From Phycisphaerales bacterium (GTDB lineage Bacteria; Bacteroidota; Bacteroidia; Chitinophagales; Chitinophagaceae): DNA of 56,495 bases. The stretch lies in the NCBI GenBank assembly GCA_030054025.1, contig JASGCQ010000004.1:1-56495 (forward strand). The letters are read 5' to 3'. This document shows, piece by piece, positions 17,905 through 24,611 of this stretch. The notes below the pieces were generated by a model. The model was not told the origin of the DNA and did not search any database. It was given only the letters and a program-made list of their open reading frames with translations. A program made the translations under genes and the position numbers. Positions within the stretch are counted from its first letter, which is position 1. Every line of letters starts with the position of its first letter.

Positions 17905-18064
17905 AATTGATAAACAAGGAGTCGGCTTTTTGAGTCGGCTCCTTGTATTAAAGTTTTTCCTAATTGCATTCTGATTTTTGAAAGATAAATTAGTTATTTA
18001 GTTGTTACATTTTCAATAGAAAAAAGATTTTTACAACTGTAAACAGATTTTTCTTGGCAAAAAA

Positions 18065-18110
18065 TGTTACATTTTTTTGTTTTTTGATAAAAAAACCTAT
18101 TTTTGTAACA
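18065..18110 (+). promoter_or_regulatory. Promoter/operator of the XRE-ImmA-PIN operon
   Basis: TGTTACA ... TGTAACA inverted repeat overlapping a Bacteroidetes -7 box TATTTTTG (18099-18106). Confidence 0.5.
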
Positions 18111-18143
18111 GAATTCACAAAAAGTATGCTTAAAATTGCTGTT

Positions 18144-18482
18144 ATGAAAAACGCAAATATCATTATCAGGACTTTAAGAGAACAACTAGGTTACAGTCAA
18201 GATGCAGTAGCAAATTTTCTTAAAGTAAAAAGAGAGATGGTAAGTTACTACGAAACAGGGGCAAGGGAATTGCCATTAGGGGTGCTGGAAAAGCTAGCGG
18301 ATTTATTCGGAGTCGATTTAGAAATCTTTTTTACTGATAATGTCGAAGATGTAAACACAGAGCTTGCTTTTGCTTTTAGGGCTAATGAGCTTAATGAGAA
18401 TGACCTTGAAAGTATTGCTGCATTCAGAAAAATTATCAAAAATTATCAAAGAATAACCAATTTGGAAAAAAGGGATGCTTAA
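18144..18482 (+). CDS. XRE-family HTH transcriptional regulator
   Basis: IIRTLREQLGYSQDAVANFLKVKREMVSYYETGARELPLGVLEKLADLFGV. Confidence 0.9.
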   Translation: MKNANIIIRTLREQLGYSQDAVANFLKVKREMVSYYETGARELPLGVLEKLADLFGVDLEIFFTDNVEDVNTELAFAFRANELNENDLESIAAFRKIIKNYQRITNLEKRDA

Positions 18483-19218
18483 GGAAAGATACATAGAATT
18501 TAAGGCTAACAGATTTCGGGAAGAACATGGTTTAGCGGCTACAGAACCGGTAGATGTATATAAGCTATTAGCTAAACTTAATGTTATCACCGTGTTCAAA
18601 GAAATGACTGAAAACTTTTCTGGCATGGCTTTGAAGAATGGCGTAGGTAATTTTATGATGGTAAACTCTAGCGATATTCTAGCAAGGCAGCATTTTACTA
18701 TTGGACACGAATTGTATCATTTATTTATTCAAGAAAATTTTAAAAATCGCATTTGTCAGGTTGGAATATTTGATAAAAAAGAGAAAGAGGAATACAATGC
18801 TGATTGGTTTTCGTCTTACCTGCTCATGCCTCAAGATGGAATCTTTGAATTATTGCCAAAAAACGAAATAGGCTTAAACAAAATTAGTCTCGATTCAATT
18901 GTAAAAATGCAACATTATTTTGGTGTTTCGCGAGTGGCAATACTTAATAGGCTAATGTTTATTGACATGATTAACAAACAGCGAAAAGAAGAACTACTAA
19001 ATACAGGCAATAAACGATTACATGCCGTATTAATGGGTTTTGGTGAGGATTTATATGATGCTGGTAATACAAATAAAGTAATTGGTGACTATGGTGAAAA
19101 AGCAAAAAAACTTTATGATAGGGAAATAGTATCTGAAACAGATTTCTATGGTTTAATGATGGATATCGGAATAGACTTGGACAAAAAATTGAAGGAGGAT
19201 GGCAAAGCAGAAAGGTGA
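18475..19218 (+). CDS. ImmA/IrrE family metallo-endopeptidase
   Basis: FTIGHELYHLFIQE (HExxH) and EYNADWFSSYLLMP; start overlaps the XRE stop. Confidence 0.92.
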   Translation: MLKERYIEFKANRFREEHGLAATEPVDVYKLLAKLNVITVFKEMTENFSGMALKNGVGNFMMVNSSDILARQHFTIGHELYHLFIQENFKNRICQVGIFDKKEKEEYNADWFSSYLLMPQDGIFELLPKNEIGLNKISLDSIVKMQHYFGVSRVAILNRLMFIDMINKQRKEELLNTGNKRLHAVLMGFGEDLYDAGNTNKVIGDYGEKAKKLYDREIVSETDFYGLMMDIGIDLDKKLKEDGKAER

Positions 19219-19729
19219 ACCGAAAATATTATTAGATGCAGATGTAGTGATACATTTTATAAAAGCTGGATATCAGATGAAATTAGCTGCCATCTTTCCT
19301 GACAGGTTGACTATGCTTGATAAAGTGAAACTAGAATTATTAAAAAGAAGATCAGAGGCATTAGGAGTTGAAAACTTTCTTAGCTGGTGTAAAATACCTG
19401 TTGAAGAAATGCCAAAAGATATTGAAATATTGAGAGAATATGCAGCTTTAAAGAAGCTAAGAGGTAACGGAGAAAGTGCTTGTATGGCTGTAGCAAGATT
19501 CCGTAAGGAGTATATTGCTAGCAGCAATATTCGTGATATAAAAAAATATTGTGAAGAACATTCGATTGTTTACTATACAACTTTAGATGTGCTTGAAGTG
19601 GCTATTGGTAGTGGTATAATGACAGAACCTGAGTGTGACAATTTTATAAAAGAAGTGAAGCTCAAGGACAGTAAAATGCCATGTAATACAATGGCTGAGT
19701 TCAGAAAATTGAAGAAAAAAGAATATTGA
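19199..19729 (+). CDS. PIN-like domain protein (putative toxin/RNase)
   Basis: ILLDADVVIHFI N-terminal acidic motif, GNGESACMAVARF, YYTTLDVLEVAI; 20-nt overlap with the ImmA-like gene. Confidence 0.65.
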   Translation: MAKQKGEPKILLDADVVIHFIKAGYQMKLAAIFPDRLTMLDKVKLELLKRRSEALGVENFLSWCKIPVEEMPKDIEILREYAALKKLRGNGESACMAVARFRKEYIASSNIRDIKKYCEEHSIVYYTTLDVLEVAIGSGIMTEPECDNFIKEVKLKDSKMPCNTMAEFRKLKKKEY

Positions 19730-19784
19730 AAGACATATTGACATTACAAATACGATGGAATGAATATTGATAAAGATTAAAAAA

Positions 19785-19873
19785 GAAAAAGCCCCTTAAA
19801 GTTCTGGTAAAACTTTAGGGGCTGGTTGGAATGAGTTTTAGAAAAGCTTCTCTTTCCAGTTGATTTATTTCGT
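19785..19873 (-). ncRNA. Predicted minus-strand small RNA (~90-100 nt) ending at a strong terminator
   Basis: Minus-strand TTG-N20-TACTTTTG promoter (-7 at 19878-19885), transcript ending in AGCCCCTAAAGTT...AACTTTAAGGGGCT followed by TTTTTCTTTTTT. No ORF. Confidence 0.5.
19790..19823 (-). terminator. Rho-independent terminator, functional on the minus strand
   Basis: AGCCCCTtAAAGTT-ctggtaa-AACTTTaGGGGCT; the T-run is present only on the minus-strand side. Confidence 0.7.
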
Positions 19874-20039: not shown

Positions 20040-20276
20040 ATGAAAATGGGAAAGAACATTCACGTAACGCCACACCAAAATGGTTGGCAAGTAAAAAGGG
20101 TAGGTAATTCAAAAGCAACAAAAATTACCGAAACTCAACAAGAGGCAATTAAGTATGCCATACCGATTGCAAAAAATGAAAAATCTGAAGTAGTTATCCA
20201 TGGAAAAGATGGAAGAATAAGAGATAAAGACTCTTATGGTAATGATCCATCAACAATCAAAGATAAAAAATTTTAA
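20040..20276 (+). CDS. DUF2188-like small protein, first gene of the CBASS-like operon
   Basis: NIHVTPHQNGWQVKRVGNSKATKITETQQEAIKYAIPIAKNEKSEVVIHGKDGRIRDKDSYGNDP matches the DUF2188 pattern. Confidence 0.75.
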   Translation: MKMGKNIHVTPHQNGWQVKRVGNSKATKITETQQEAIKYAIPIAKNEKSEVVIHGKDGRIRDKDSYGNDPSTIKDKKF

Positions 20277-20279
20277 AGC

Positions 20280-20696
20280 ATGCATCCAATCATTAGTAAA
20301 TTAGGCATAAAGCCCGCAGATAGAATTGTTGTACCTAAAAGTGGCTTAAGAATAGTACAACATCATGCAATATATCTTGGTCAAAATAAATTTGGACATG
20401 ACTTAATTGCGGAAAACAAAATTGGATTCGGCGTTAGGATGGTAACTGCTGATGAATTTTTTAAAGATGTAATTGAGGTTACACGAATAGAAAGATTTAA
20501 TGGTAGTAATCATGATAGAAATAAAGCTATAGAAAAAGCACTGTTGTTACTTGGCAAAGAGTATAACCTAATTGGCTTTAACTGCGAAAATTATGCTAAT
20601 ACTGTTCAACACAAAAGTAGTTATAGCAATCAAGTAAAAACAGGATTGGGTGTTTTTGTAGCATTAATGTTAGGGGTAATAATTTTAAACGATTAA
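20280..20696 (+). CDS. LRAT/NC-domain (NlpC/P60-related) putative acyltransferase/hydrolase with C-terminal TM helix
   Basis: IVQHHAIYLG (His block) and FNCENYANTVQ (NC motif Cys block); hydrophobic tail LGVFVALMLGVIIL. Confidence 0.7.
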   Translation: MHPIISKLGIKPADRIVVPKSGLRIVQHHAIYLGQNKFGHDLIAENKIGFGVRMVTADEFFKDVIEVTRIERFNGSNHDRNKAIEKALLLLGKEYNLIGFNCENYANTVQHKSSYSNQVKTGLGVFVALMLGVIILND

Positions 20697-20698
20697 AT

Positions 20699-21301
20699 AT
20701 GGCAGTTATAGATTTTAAGTATCATAAGGAGGCTACTACCATTCTTTTTATAGTAAGTGTGTATTCATTGGCCACTTTTCTTACTAAAAACTTGTTTTCA
20801 CTTTCAGGTGTAGCTATTTCAGCATTTGCGCTTACAGGAGCTATAATAGTAATTATTAATGAATATTTGTGGAACTATTTCCCCTTTACTTTCTTGTTTA
20901 AGATAAAATGCTTTGCAGGTGAATACGAAGGTGAAATTAGATATAGTTTTTTAAATGAAAATTTCGAAACAATATCTGGTAACTTAAAACAAAAGCGAAC
21001 AATAAAGCAAACAGGTTCATCAATATTTATAACAACAGAAACCTTTAATCCAGATGGTTCTGTTAGTAGTAAATCTGAGAGTAAAGTTGAACAAATTGTT
21101 GTTGAACGTGATGGCACCTTTAAGTTGTTTTATACCTATTTTAATGAAGGCAATTTTGAACAAAAATTAATGCCACATTACGGCACAGAGGTTTTGCACA
21201 TAAAAATAAATAAAAAAAACTGCACTATCGAAGGTGAATATTACACCAATAGACAACCCAATCAAACAAGAGGGAAAATTTCATTGACTAAAATAAAATA
21301 A
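20699..21301 (+). CDS. Two-TM + beta-rich protein, S-2TMbeta/Cap15-like putative CBASS effector
   Basis: Two N-terminal hydrophobic helices, then a beta-rich domain GEYEGEIRYSFLNENFETISGNLKQKRTIKQTGSSIFITTET...; directly upstream of a CD-NTase. Confidence 0.6.
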   Translation: MAVIDFKYHKEATTILFIVSVYSLATFLTKNLFSLSGVAISAFALTGAIIVIINEYLWNYFPFTFLFKIKCFAGEYEGEIRYSFLNENFETISGNLKQKRTIKQTGSSIFITTETFNPDGSVSSKSESKVEQIVVERDGTFKLFYTYFNEGNFEQKLMPHYGTEVLHIKINKKNCTIEGEYYTNRQPNQTRGKISLTKIK

Positions 21302-21308
21302 GTTTAAA

Positions 21309-22367
21309 ATGGCAAACTGTACAGATTTGTTTCTTAATTATAATAACCTAATCAAACTAACTAACGATAAGCGAAATATTCTTTTACAAACGAGAGAAAG
21401 TTTAAGAAAAAGAATGTTAGGTAAATACAAAAAAATTTCAGTAAACGAACAAACTAGTCTTCTTTTAGAGTTTCAAAGTCAGGGTTCGTTCGTTATGGAT
21501 ACGATTATTACTCCAGTTAATGAAGACTTTGATTTAGATGATGGTGTCTATTTTATTGGCAGCAGAAATGAAACACAAAAACCATCGCCAGCCCACTTTC
21601 ACAAATGGGTAATGCAAGCAGTAGATAATGACAATGATTATGAAGAAGTTGTTGATAAAGATACATGCGTAAGGATTAAATATAAGCAAGGCTTTCATAT
21701 AGACTTACCAATATATTATGCTTCCAAATTTGAACACCCGGAGTTAGCACACAAAAAAGATGGCTGGCTTGAAAGCAACCCTGTAGAGTTTATTGCTTGG
21801 TTTGAAGACAAAGCAAAATCTGGCTTTAACAAAGCTTTTTTGTATGAAAGCAGATTATATTCATCTCAATTTGATAGCTGGTTAAACGAACAAAGAAAAG
21901 CTGATTGTCAGCTTAGAAGGATAGTAAGATATATAAAAGCTTGGGCAGACTTGAAGCGTGATGAAATGCCATGTGGCATTGAGATAACCATATTGGTCGC
22001 TAATAATTATGCTGAAAATTTGCTAAGAGAAGATCTGGCACTAAGAGATACCCTAATCAATATAAAGAGCTATTTATTGAATAATGGCTTTAAGTGCCCG
22101 CGACCAACGACGCCAATCAATGAAGATTTATTTCAGCATAAAACAGAACAACAAAAAAAATATTTCTTAACTGCTGTGAATGGATTAATAGCTTCAGCTA
22201 ATAATGCTCTTGAAGCTGATAATCAAAAGGATTCCTGTAAAGAATGGGAAAAGCATTTTGGCAGTAGGTTTCCTTGTCATTTAGCCAATAACTATAAAGA
22301 AACACCTAAAAGAGATATAGCAGCTTTGCAACCAATAGCAGCAACAAGTAAGCCATATGGATTTTAA
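21309..22367 (+). CDS. CD-NTase (CBASS oligonucleotide cyclase)
   Basis: QGSFVMDTII (GS motif), NEDFDLDDGVYFIG (DxD), HIDLPIYY (third acidic); C terminus ...ATSKPYGF. Confidence 0.85.
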   Translation: MANCTDLFLNYNNLIKLTNDKRNILLQTRESLRKRMLGKYKKISVNEQTSLLLEFQSQGSFVMDTIITPVNEDFDLDDGVYFIGSRNETQKPSPAHFHKWVMQAVDNDNDYEEVVDKDTCVRIKYKQGFHIDLPIYYASKFEHPELAHKKDGWLESNPVEFIAWFEDKAKSGFNKAFLYESRLYSSQFDSWLNEQRKADCQLRRIVRYIKAWADLKRDEMPCGIEITILVANNYAENLLREDLALRDTLINIKSYLLNNGFKCPRPTTPINEDLFQHKTEQQKKYFLTAVNGLIASANNALEADNQKDSCKEWEKHFGSRFPCHLANNYKETPKRDIAALQPIAATSKPYGF

Positions 22368-23001
22368 AGAACTAATTTTAAAAGAATATGAAGTTTTGAA
22401 GGATTGGTATCCAAAATTAGAGATGCCAAGCTTTGGTAAATATTATTGCTCGATAAAAGGTGTAGTTGATTTAATTGATATCAATGGCAATAAATGGGAC
22501 ACTTATTCTATAGAGATAAAAATACCCCCAACTTATCCAAAAGAAATTCCGATTTTATTAGAAACACAAGGAAAAATACCCAGAGATATTGATTGGCACA
22601 TTGTAAATAAAGAAGGTATTTGTTGTCTTGGGACTGATTCAAAAATTTACAGAGAATTACAAAACAAAATCACAATAGAAAATTGGTTTAAAAAATTTGG
22701 ATATAGTTTTTTGGCAAATCACAGGTATAGGGCTGAAACAGGAAAATATGCCAACGGTTACTATCGACATTTTAACGATGGAATAGTCGATGACTATAAA
22801 GAGTTGTTTAGATTGAATTCTAAGGAAGAGGTGGTTACTTACATAAAATACATTTTGGGAAAAAAAACAAAAAGTTTAAATACTAATTGTTTTTGTGGCA
22901 GTAACAAGCTTTATAAAAGATGCTATTTATTATATAAAGAAAAACACTTTCACAATATCCCTGAATTTATCTATGAAAAAGATTTGAAGAAGTTGCAATA
23001 G
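22357..23001 (+). CDS. E2/UBC-like protein with C-terminal SEC-C-type zinc motif
   Basis: IEIKIPPTYPKEIPILLET, WHIVNKEGICCLG (candidate catalytic Cys); tail NCFCGSNKLYKRCY. Overlaps the CD-NTase stop by 11 nt. Confidence 0.75.
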   Translation: MDFKELILKEYEVLKDWYPKLEMPSFGKYYCSIKGVVDLIDINGNKWDTYSIEIKIPPTYPKEIPILLETQGKIPRDIDWHIVNKEGICCLGTDSKIYRELQNKITIENWFKKFGYSFLANHRYRAETGKYANGYYRHFNDGIVDDYKELFRLNSKEEVVTYIKYILGKKTKSLNTNCFCGSNKLYKRCYLLYKEKHFHNIPEFIYEKDLKKLQ

Positions 23002-23123: not shown

Positions 23124-24611
23124 ATGAAATCACTTGATAAATACTTGCTCAACCAAGAATGGGAAGCAGTTAGATTTCCAATCACCATTTCGAGGCTTGA
23201 TAATAATGAAGCGTTTCGTTGTTTTGGAGAAAACACAACAATCAAAATATGGAGAGATAAAGAATATAAATTAGTTGGCAGATTATATGGTGCTACTCCT
23301 AAACCAAAGCTTATTAACAATGATAATTTTATTGGTAGGGGAAATATAATAAAAGGCGATAATATAAAGGGGATAGACGAGCTTGGTAACTTGATCGAAA
23401 TATTTGATTGTGTCATTCATTCAATTTCAAGTAATTCTTGGAATAGGAATGAACTAGGATATGTTTGTGACTGTGATATAAAAATGGATAAGATATACAT
23501 TTCCTCTAATTCTCAGAAACCATCAAAAGCAAGTAAAAGGCTTGACTGGTTTTTATGTTCTAAAGTCGATGCACAATTTAGCGAAACAACAATCAGGTAT
23601 GAAATGCCGAAAGGCACGAAAATAAGGGAAGGGATTGACGAGTATAACAAAAGTGATATTGACAGAAACACTAGTGTTTCATGGTCAAGGGATTATAATT
23701 GTATTGAGGTAGAAGGAATCAAATTTATTATTGCAAACATACCAAAAGAGATAATTGAGAATAATCTTGCTGGCTTATGTTTTGAATTTAGAGACCAACT
23801 AGGATTTGAAATTCCTAGTTCAAAAAAAATAAACAACATTAAGAATCTAGCATCTTTCTTGCTAGGAAATAATTTAGTGCATATCGGGTATTCGCTTTTA
23901 AATGGCAATGAAGTTATCAAATCGGTATCCTATAGTGTTTATAACCATATATTTCAACTAACTCAAAAAAGTGCTATGCCGCCGATAAAATTTAATACGC
24001 AATACGATTGGGGAAAATTTCAATGGCTATTAAATAATTTACTGGGAGATTATTTGCAGTTTGAACAAGAGTTTAAATTAGACGAAGTGCTATCTAGATA
24101 TTGGATAGCACTAAGTTTACCACTCGGAGTAAACTTACCTATTCTTGCAAATGCTCTTGAGGTATTAGCCTTCTATTATTTAAAGAAAAAAAATGAACTC
24201 AAAACTGAAACTATTCCAACGGAAGAATATAACAAATTAATTGGAACTGAATTACTCTCTCTTGAGGCTAAGTTTTCTAATTACAAAGATGGCAACATGA
24301 TTCTTAATAAATATAAAAACGCAAATCAAAGAGGCTCAAGTGAGAAAATAAATCACTTCTTCAACCTATTAAAGATTGAAATAGGCAAACAAGAAAAAGC
24401 AGCCATTAATTTGAGAAATAAAATGATTCATAGTATAAGAGATTACTCTGAAGATGATAAAATTTTTGATGATTTAATTCTTTCAAGAATTTACCAAGTA
24501 CTATTCAATAGAACCTTACTTAAATTACTTAATTATGATGGATACTATATTGATTATAGCATGCAAGGCTGCCCGTTAAAACATATTTCTAAAATAGCTG
24601 GTTCTGAATAA
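23124..24611 (+). CDS. HEPN-motif protein, possibly ApeA-like defence protein
   Basis: C-terminal helical region with LRNKMIHSIRDY (R-x4-H HEPN motif) after a long N-terminal beta-rich domain. Confidence 0.5.
   Translation: MKSLDKYLLNQEWEAVRFPITISRLDNNEAFRCFGENTTIKIWRDKEYKLVGRLYGATPKPKLINNDNFIGRGNIIKGDNIKGIDELGNLIEIFDCVIHSISSNSWNRNELGYVCDCDIKMDKIYISSNSQKPSKASKRLDWFLCSKVDAQFSETTIRYEMPKGTKIREGIDEYNKSDIDRNTSVSWSRDYNCIEVEGIKFIIANIPKEIIENNLAGLCFEFRDQLGFEIPSSKKINNIKNLASFLLGNNLVHIGYSLLNGNEVIKSVSYSVYNHIFQLTQKSAMPPIKFNTQYDWGKFQWLLNNLLGDYLQFEQEFKLDEVLSRYWIALSLPLGVNLPILANALEVLAFYYLKKKNELKTETIPTEEYNKLIGTELLSLEAKFSNYKDGNMILNKYKNANQRGSSEKINHFFNLLKIEIGKQEKAAINLRNKMIHSIRDYSEDDKIFDDLILSRIYQVLFNRTLLKLLNYDGYYIDYSMQGCPLKHISKIAGSE

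Follow-up and report, generated by a model that had tools for sequence, protein, structure and literature searches.

The five-gene CBASS operon described here has a core that is already known, and the sequence contexts of its second gene, which encodes a predicted LRAT/PLAAT-like enzyme, suggest that CBASS and Pycsar systems have an additional, interchangeable component that has gone unrecognised. Accessory genes may hold the answer to the open question of what triggers most cyclases in CBASS and Pycsar. The LRAT-like gene is common to two unrelated cyclase classes and to at least six types of CBASS and Pycsar effector, and is a strong candidate for a shared step, which could be an input tied to the envelope or a second arm of killing. 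An association of CBASS with LRAT or DUF2188, or of CD-NTases with LRAT or NlpC/P60 proteins, is unreported in the openly searchable literature, where an earlier mention is possible. No PADLOC model matched the LRAT-like gene, so current defence-annotation models truncate the operons that carry it at their 5′ end.

An E2-only CBASS operon with two additional 5′ genes

We analysed a 56,495-nt stretch of DNA (the window), in which the operon comprises five + strand ORFs spaced by 3, 2 and 7 nt and then overlapping by 11 nt. This layout agrees to the base with the preliminary description, and the motifs HHAIYLG, FNCENYAN, DFDLDD and HIDLPIYY that it had listed are all present. The first gene (20040–20276) encodes a small DUF2188 protein of 78 aa (Pfam PF09954, 1e-24; PADLOC candidate PDC-S16, 5e-34) and the second (20280–20696) a predicted LRAT/PLAAT-like permuted NlpC/P60 enzyme of 138 aa (LRAT PF04970, 3e-7; Peptidase_C92 PF05708, 7e-8). 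Profile matches from Pfam, PADLOC and NCBIfam back the identities first proposed for the remaining three: the membrane effector Cap15, with two transmembrane helices and a beta-barrel (20699–21301; PF18153, 3e-11; PADLOC 2TM effector, 4e-49), a DncV-like CD-NTase of 352 aa (21309–22367; PF21654, 2e-23; PADLOC cyclase, 4e-106; NCBIfam ‘CBASS cGAMP synthase’ NF041078, 5e-72) and a stand-alone E2-like protein of 214 aa with a conserved CC motif (22357–23001; PADLOC E1-E2, 7e-47, and E2, 4e-44). The E2 has a zinc-binding-type SEC-C tail; its Pfam score of 16.1 bits lies under the cut-off of 20.4, but the cysteine motif CFCGSxKxYxxC is present and common to related E2s in an alignment with six of them.

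By these sequence matches, the Cap15, cyclase and E2 genes make up a standard E2-only CBASS (‘short type II’). Cap15 exceeds the PF18153 cut-off and lies 7 nt from the cyclase, as a nucleotide-responsive effector of CBASS should; the cyclase conserves the GS...DxD active-site motif and is the sole SMODS match across its own 2.49 Mb genome; and the E2 matches E2-type profiles, is too short for an E1-E2 fusion and stands without E1 or Cap3, the next downstream gene having no PADLOC match. A bare equivalent of this operon is found in L057; the window shares with such systems Cap15, the DncV-like CD-NTase and the stand-alone E2 with its SEC-C-type tail, and adds the DUF2188 and LRAT/PLAAT-like genes at the 5′ end of a tight operon. 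We looked for a terminator separating these two genes from the cyclase, which would have spoken against the grouping made in the preliminary description, and found no + strand terminator-like site in 20040–23001.

The cyclases of the E2-only operons in the window (22340–22367; C terminus ...SKPYGF), L014, L015, L016, L024, L025 and L057 share a tail, [KRN]P[YW][GAS] followed by a single residue, whose conservation hints at E2 conjugation at the C terminus, perhaps after trimming. Directly after the CBASS genes, 23124–24611 encodes a 495-aa protein of unknown family with no PADLOC match.

Upstream on the same strand lie genes for an HTH regulator with a possible CapH-like role (18054–18482; NCBIfam HTH matches) and an M78/IrrE-type metallopeptidase that may be a CapP-like regulator (18475–19218; PF06114, 5e-13; PADLOC capP, 4e-26). 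Two features intervene before the operon: the third gene of this trio (19199–19729, +), which is PIN-like by inspection only, has no Pfam match and has a homologue (4e-59) in the L092 trio, and a strong hairpin at 19781–19824 (RNA fold −18.1 kcal/mol, z = −4.2) with a T-run on its − strand side. The HTH-M78-PIN-like trio (18054–19729) recurs in L092 (2558–4227), where it is followed by DUF2188. By ORF inspection, 13337–48067 is a mobile element that encloses the operon and carries genes for an integrase, a DNA primase, RadC, an ArdC-like protein, a MobF-type relaxase, a serine recombinase and type I restriction.

A predicted membrane-tethered NlpC/P60-type enzyme

The preliminary description had called for structure prediction of the ORFs. 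The AF2 model of the LRAT-like protein (pLDDT 89) comprises a permuted NlpC/P60 domain, predicted with confidence, and then a less confident C-terminal helix, placed by the model and by hydropathy at about residues 117–137 and predicted to span the membrane; hydropathy indicates such a helix in all members of the cyclase-linked LRAT group. The top Foldseek match of the model is human HRASLS3/PLAAT3, which is also the best match in an HMM search of PDB sequences (2e-6), and profile searches gave a weak match to desumoylating-type peptidases (PPPDE/C97). Across an alignment of 15 homologues H28, E45, Y95 and C102 are invariant, and His precedes Cys, the permuted order, within a papain-like fold supported by alignment, model and Foldseek.

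With eukaryotic LRAT and PLAAT/HRASLS proteins the LRAT-like protein shares the permuted fold, the H-x-A-x-Y-x-G, NCEHF-type and S-x-Q motifs and a single C-terminal membrane helix. It differs in being bacterial and within a phage-defence operon, and in lacking the H-H-C triad of PLAAT enzymes: at the position of their second catalytic His it has the pair E45/N46, as in enzymes of the YiiX type, the PDB-profile alignment spanning the first His and the Cys only. The residues H28, E45, Y95 and C102 instead match the active site of YiiX-type permuted enzymes, a Cys-His-Glu triad with a typical Tyr (PMC3142127). This active site is shared with the YaeF/YiiX (Peptidase_C92) and Tox-Act1-type enzymes, among which lipid-directed members are known (PMC3142127, PMC12994826); Tox-Act1 itself is a toxin of the permuted NlpC/P60 type with phospholipase activity (PMC12994826). 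Unlike these, the LRAT-like protein has a transmembrane tail and is linked to operons that use nucleotide second messengers, being neither a secreted toxin nor a stand-alone enzyme. The fold, active site and relatives suggest a putative cytosolic enzyme that is tethered to the inner membrane and acts on acyl groups. An enzyme of this kind had been proposed at the outset, and the modelled fold, active site and membrane tail are compatible with it.

The LRAT-like gene precedes diverse cyclase operons

The first relatives identified within the family lay beside a CD-NTase with TIR-STING, beside PycTM-PycC-E2, and elsewhere. Scanning 84,980 species genomes with a four-sequence LRAT alignment returned 14 relatives, all from Bacteroidota, and 12 lie directly upstream, on the same strand, of a visible CBASS or Pycsar cyclase operon. 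The co-occurrence with CBASS elsewhere on which the preliminary description had made its proposal depend is thus borne out for LRAT, down to the five-gene order: L014 (DUF2188-LRAT-Cap15-CD-NTase-E2) is identical in order to the window, and L077, added by a class-level search and from the same organism as L014, agrees. Other CBASS contexts are LRAT-CD-NTase-patatin without an E2 (L012; patatin by PADLOC match), DUF2188-LRAT-CD-NTase-E1/E2-JAB-SAVED/M48, in which the dedicated deconjugase Cap3 is present (L013), DUF3892-LRAT-patatin-CD-NTase-E2 (L015, L016), LRAT-patatin-CD-NTase-E2 (L024, L025), LRAT-HNH/SAVED-CD-NTase-E2 (L018) and DUF2188, a 380-aa protein, LRAT, CD-NTase and TIR/STING, without an E2 (L019); in L022 the contig ends after LRAT-CD-NTase. 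The class-level search also added an independent locus, L078, with DUF2188-LRAT-DnaJ-HNH/SAVED-CD-NTase-E2. In Pycsar, which differs from the CBASS of the window in cyclase class and effector, a gene of the same LRAT group stands directly upstream of PycTM-PycC-E2 (L023) or one gene further up (L020, DUF2188-LRAT-DUF1508-PycTM-PycC-E2). The remaining two relatives are L017, where DUF3892-LRAT-patatin is followed by the contig end, and the exception L021, which lies elsewhere, on a contig that also carries a divergently placed ubiquitin-like/E1 operon. Patatins in L015, L016, L017, L024 and L025 were assigned by homology and a GGGxxG...GTSTGG sequence, and the Flavobacterium loci, as close relatives, were counted as one lineage.

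The effectors beside LRAT thus differ widely (Cap15, patatin, HNH-SAVED, SAVED-M48 peptidase, TIR-STING and PycTM), and adjacency to a cyclase by chance would be expected at less than 1% per locus, given about one such cyclase per genome. The gene is dispensable for CBASS, because all eight other Cap15 operons sampled, from other Bacteroidota, are without it. LRAT homologues that scored below about 120 bits, the more remote ones, do not adjoin cyclases, and our claim about cyclase operons is therefore restricted to the LRAT group of the window. Neither tblastn of the LRAT protein against collections of phages and plasmids nor a scan of IMG/VR with the LRAT alignment gave a match; at the sensitivity used, phages and plasmids do not commonly carry the gene. 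It is present in named isolates (Pedobacter borealis, Limnovirga soli, Adhaeribacter soli, Daejeonella lutea and Flavobacterium luteum), in which it can be tested directly.

The identities of LRAT proteins and of their neighbouring cyclases disagree: between the window and L012 the former are 58% and the latter 24% identical, and between the Pycsar locus L023 and the CBASS locus L024 the values are 50% and 24%. The gene therefore moves between systems, and its contexts show that members of the LRAT lineage have been swapped among Pycsar and CBASS systems, the latter with at least five designs of effector. On a quick LRAT tree with many weak inner branches, the cyclase-linked label required 3 changes, against a mean of 11 after shuffling, and the cyclase-linked group was not a single clean clade. 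A single origin of the LRAT–cyclase association is possible on these sequences.

Possible roles of the LRAT-like protein

In our reading, the locus is an E2-only CBASS with two optional 5′ genes, for DUF2188 and for a predicted LRAT/PLAAT-like enzyme anchored in the membrane by its C-terminal helix. Given its fold, active site and relatives, the enzyme would most likely work at the inner membrane, cleaving or transferring the acyl groups of phospholipids or lipoproteins, and might act as an auxiliary membrane effector alongside the nucleotide-gated effector of the operon. Pfam profiles and the AF2 model revealed no nucleotide-sensing or -binding domain in the LRAT-like protein, and because of this its control would probably not be exerted by the cyclic nucleotide itself, and more probably through expression, by the often-adjacent HTH-M78 (CapH/CapP-like) regulators, or through partner proteins. 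We hold this optional, membrane-anchored lipid or acyl enzyme, acting as an auxiliary effector, to be the leading candidate, tentatively, and likelier than a regulator. We prefer it for two reasons: some enzymes of this fold family damage membranes, and the distant relatives L035 and L037, encoded divergently to HTH-M78 genes, have no cyclase beside them, as would be predicted for a payload that has a function of its own. Several observations sit less easily with it: the Cap15, PycTM and patatin partners already disrupt membranes, so that a second lipid effector looks redundant; the 5′ position and the indifference to effector type would also suit a regulator or sensor; the eight sampled Cap15 operons do without the gene; and the Glu/Asn pair in place of the second PLAAT His leaves room for an amidase- or peptidase-like activity instead of a lipase-like one.

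The same 5′ position, independent of effector and of cyclase class, together with the missing nucleotide-sensing domain, would fit a membrane-anchored upstream sensor or licensing factor that turns the cyclase on, whatever the effector, either in response to a phage-induced change of the envelope or through modification of the cyclase (acylation or localisation). A type II CBASS cyclase has been found to be partly membrane-associated and conjugated to PspA (PMC11153139), which is in keeping with such a role. The cyclases that LRAT accompanies (several CD-NTase clades and class III PycC), however, have no obvious surface in common, and both distant LRATs without a cyclase and Cap15 operons without LRAT exist; we regard this role as possible but doubtful. 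A further reading, in which the membrane-anchored PLAAT-like enzyme is a portable licensing or sensing module that couples otherwise unrelated cyclic-nucleotide systems (CBASS with several effectors, and Pycsar) to the state of the envelope, seems unlikely to us. If true, it would supply a common upstream input that is absent from current models of both.

DUF2188 and other small genes at the 5′ end

In L013, L014, L019 and L020, DUF2188 copies that are 55–64% identical lie directly or one gene upstream of LRAT. The preliminary description had treated DUF2188 as a candidate CBASS partner. A census of 295 Bacteroidia genomes with gene context instead indicates a general companion of defence operons, already catalogued as PADLOC PDC-S16: it heads operons of various kinds in the vicinity of HTH-M78 or sigma/M78 regulators, with partners that include a putative KAP-type ATPase, a ubiquitin-like/E1 operon and an HNH-SAVED CBASS with DnaJ and a kinase, occurs also at the 3′ side of a TIR-STING CBASS, and is mostly found without LRAT. 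A fold search with its medium-confidence model gave no meaningful match. Differing defence-like operons beside HTH-M78 or sigma-M78 regulators contain DUF2188 in L117, L119, L120, L122, L129 and others; in L122 the order DUF2188-DnaJ-Ser/Thr kinase-HNH/SAVED-CD-NTase is a further set of accessory genes combined with CBASS.

A small-protein gene (DUF2188, DUF3892, PDC-S38-like or a 90-aa orphan) stands just upstream of LRAT in most loci, and the interval between regulators and effector appears to be a slot for rotating small genes, among them DUF2188, DUF3892, DUF1508, PDC-S38-like genes, LRAT, DnaJ and a kinase. This arrangement, and the distant LRAT-family proteins whose neighbours are DUF2188 in L091 and a similar HTH and 114-aa gene pair in L011, would suit a toxin–antitoxin-like cassette, inserted as a guard, in which the small protein restrains an LRAT toxin until phage blocks the operon. 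We consider this improbable, as most DUF2188 genes occur without LRAT and LRAT has no small companion in L018, L022, L024 and L025. An obligate DUF2188–LRAT pair was rejected, since each is often found without the other.

Deconjugation and distant homologues

The preliminary description had also raised the idea that LRAT acts on the E2–cyclase conjugate. The weak PPPDE/C97 match, and the ending of E2-only cyclases one residue past the conserved tail motif, would accord with a thiol peptidase or isopeptidase that acts on the E2-linked cyclase, by trimming or deconjugation, in place of Cap3 in E2-only systems. As a general function this is rejected, because L012 and L019 have LRAT without an E2 and L013 already has Cap3; the E2-only locus L057, moreover, has the same cyclase tail without LRAT, and we judge the idea very improbable. 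That LRAT is a fortuitous passenger of a defence island, as might be read from the mobile element (integrase, MobF-type relaxase) and the further defence genes that ORF inspection places around it, is hardly credible given its invariant catalytic residues, its many differing cyclase operons and its position in independent genomes, directly upstream on the same strand with gaps of a few bases or overlaps.

Among the distant homologues, multi-ubiquitin/E2/E1-JAB operons adjoin LRAT in L036 and L009/L021, as they do DUF2188 in L120. A separate distant branch (L080–L085 and L088) is preceded by a protein of about 290 aa of no known family, and one of its members neighbours a trypsin-like protein as large as 1892 aa; this branch looks like a separate conflict system.
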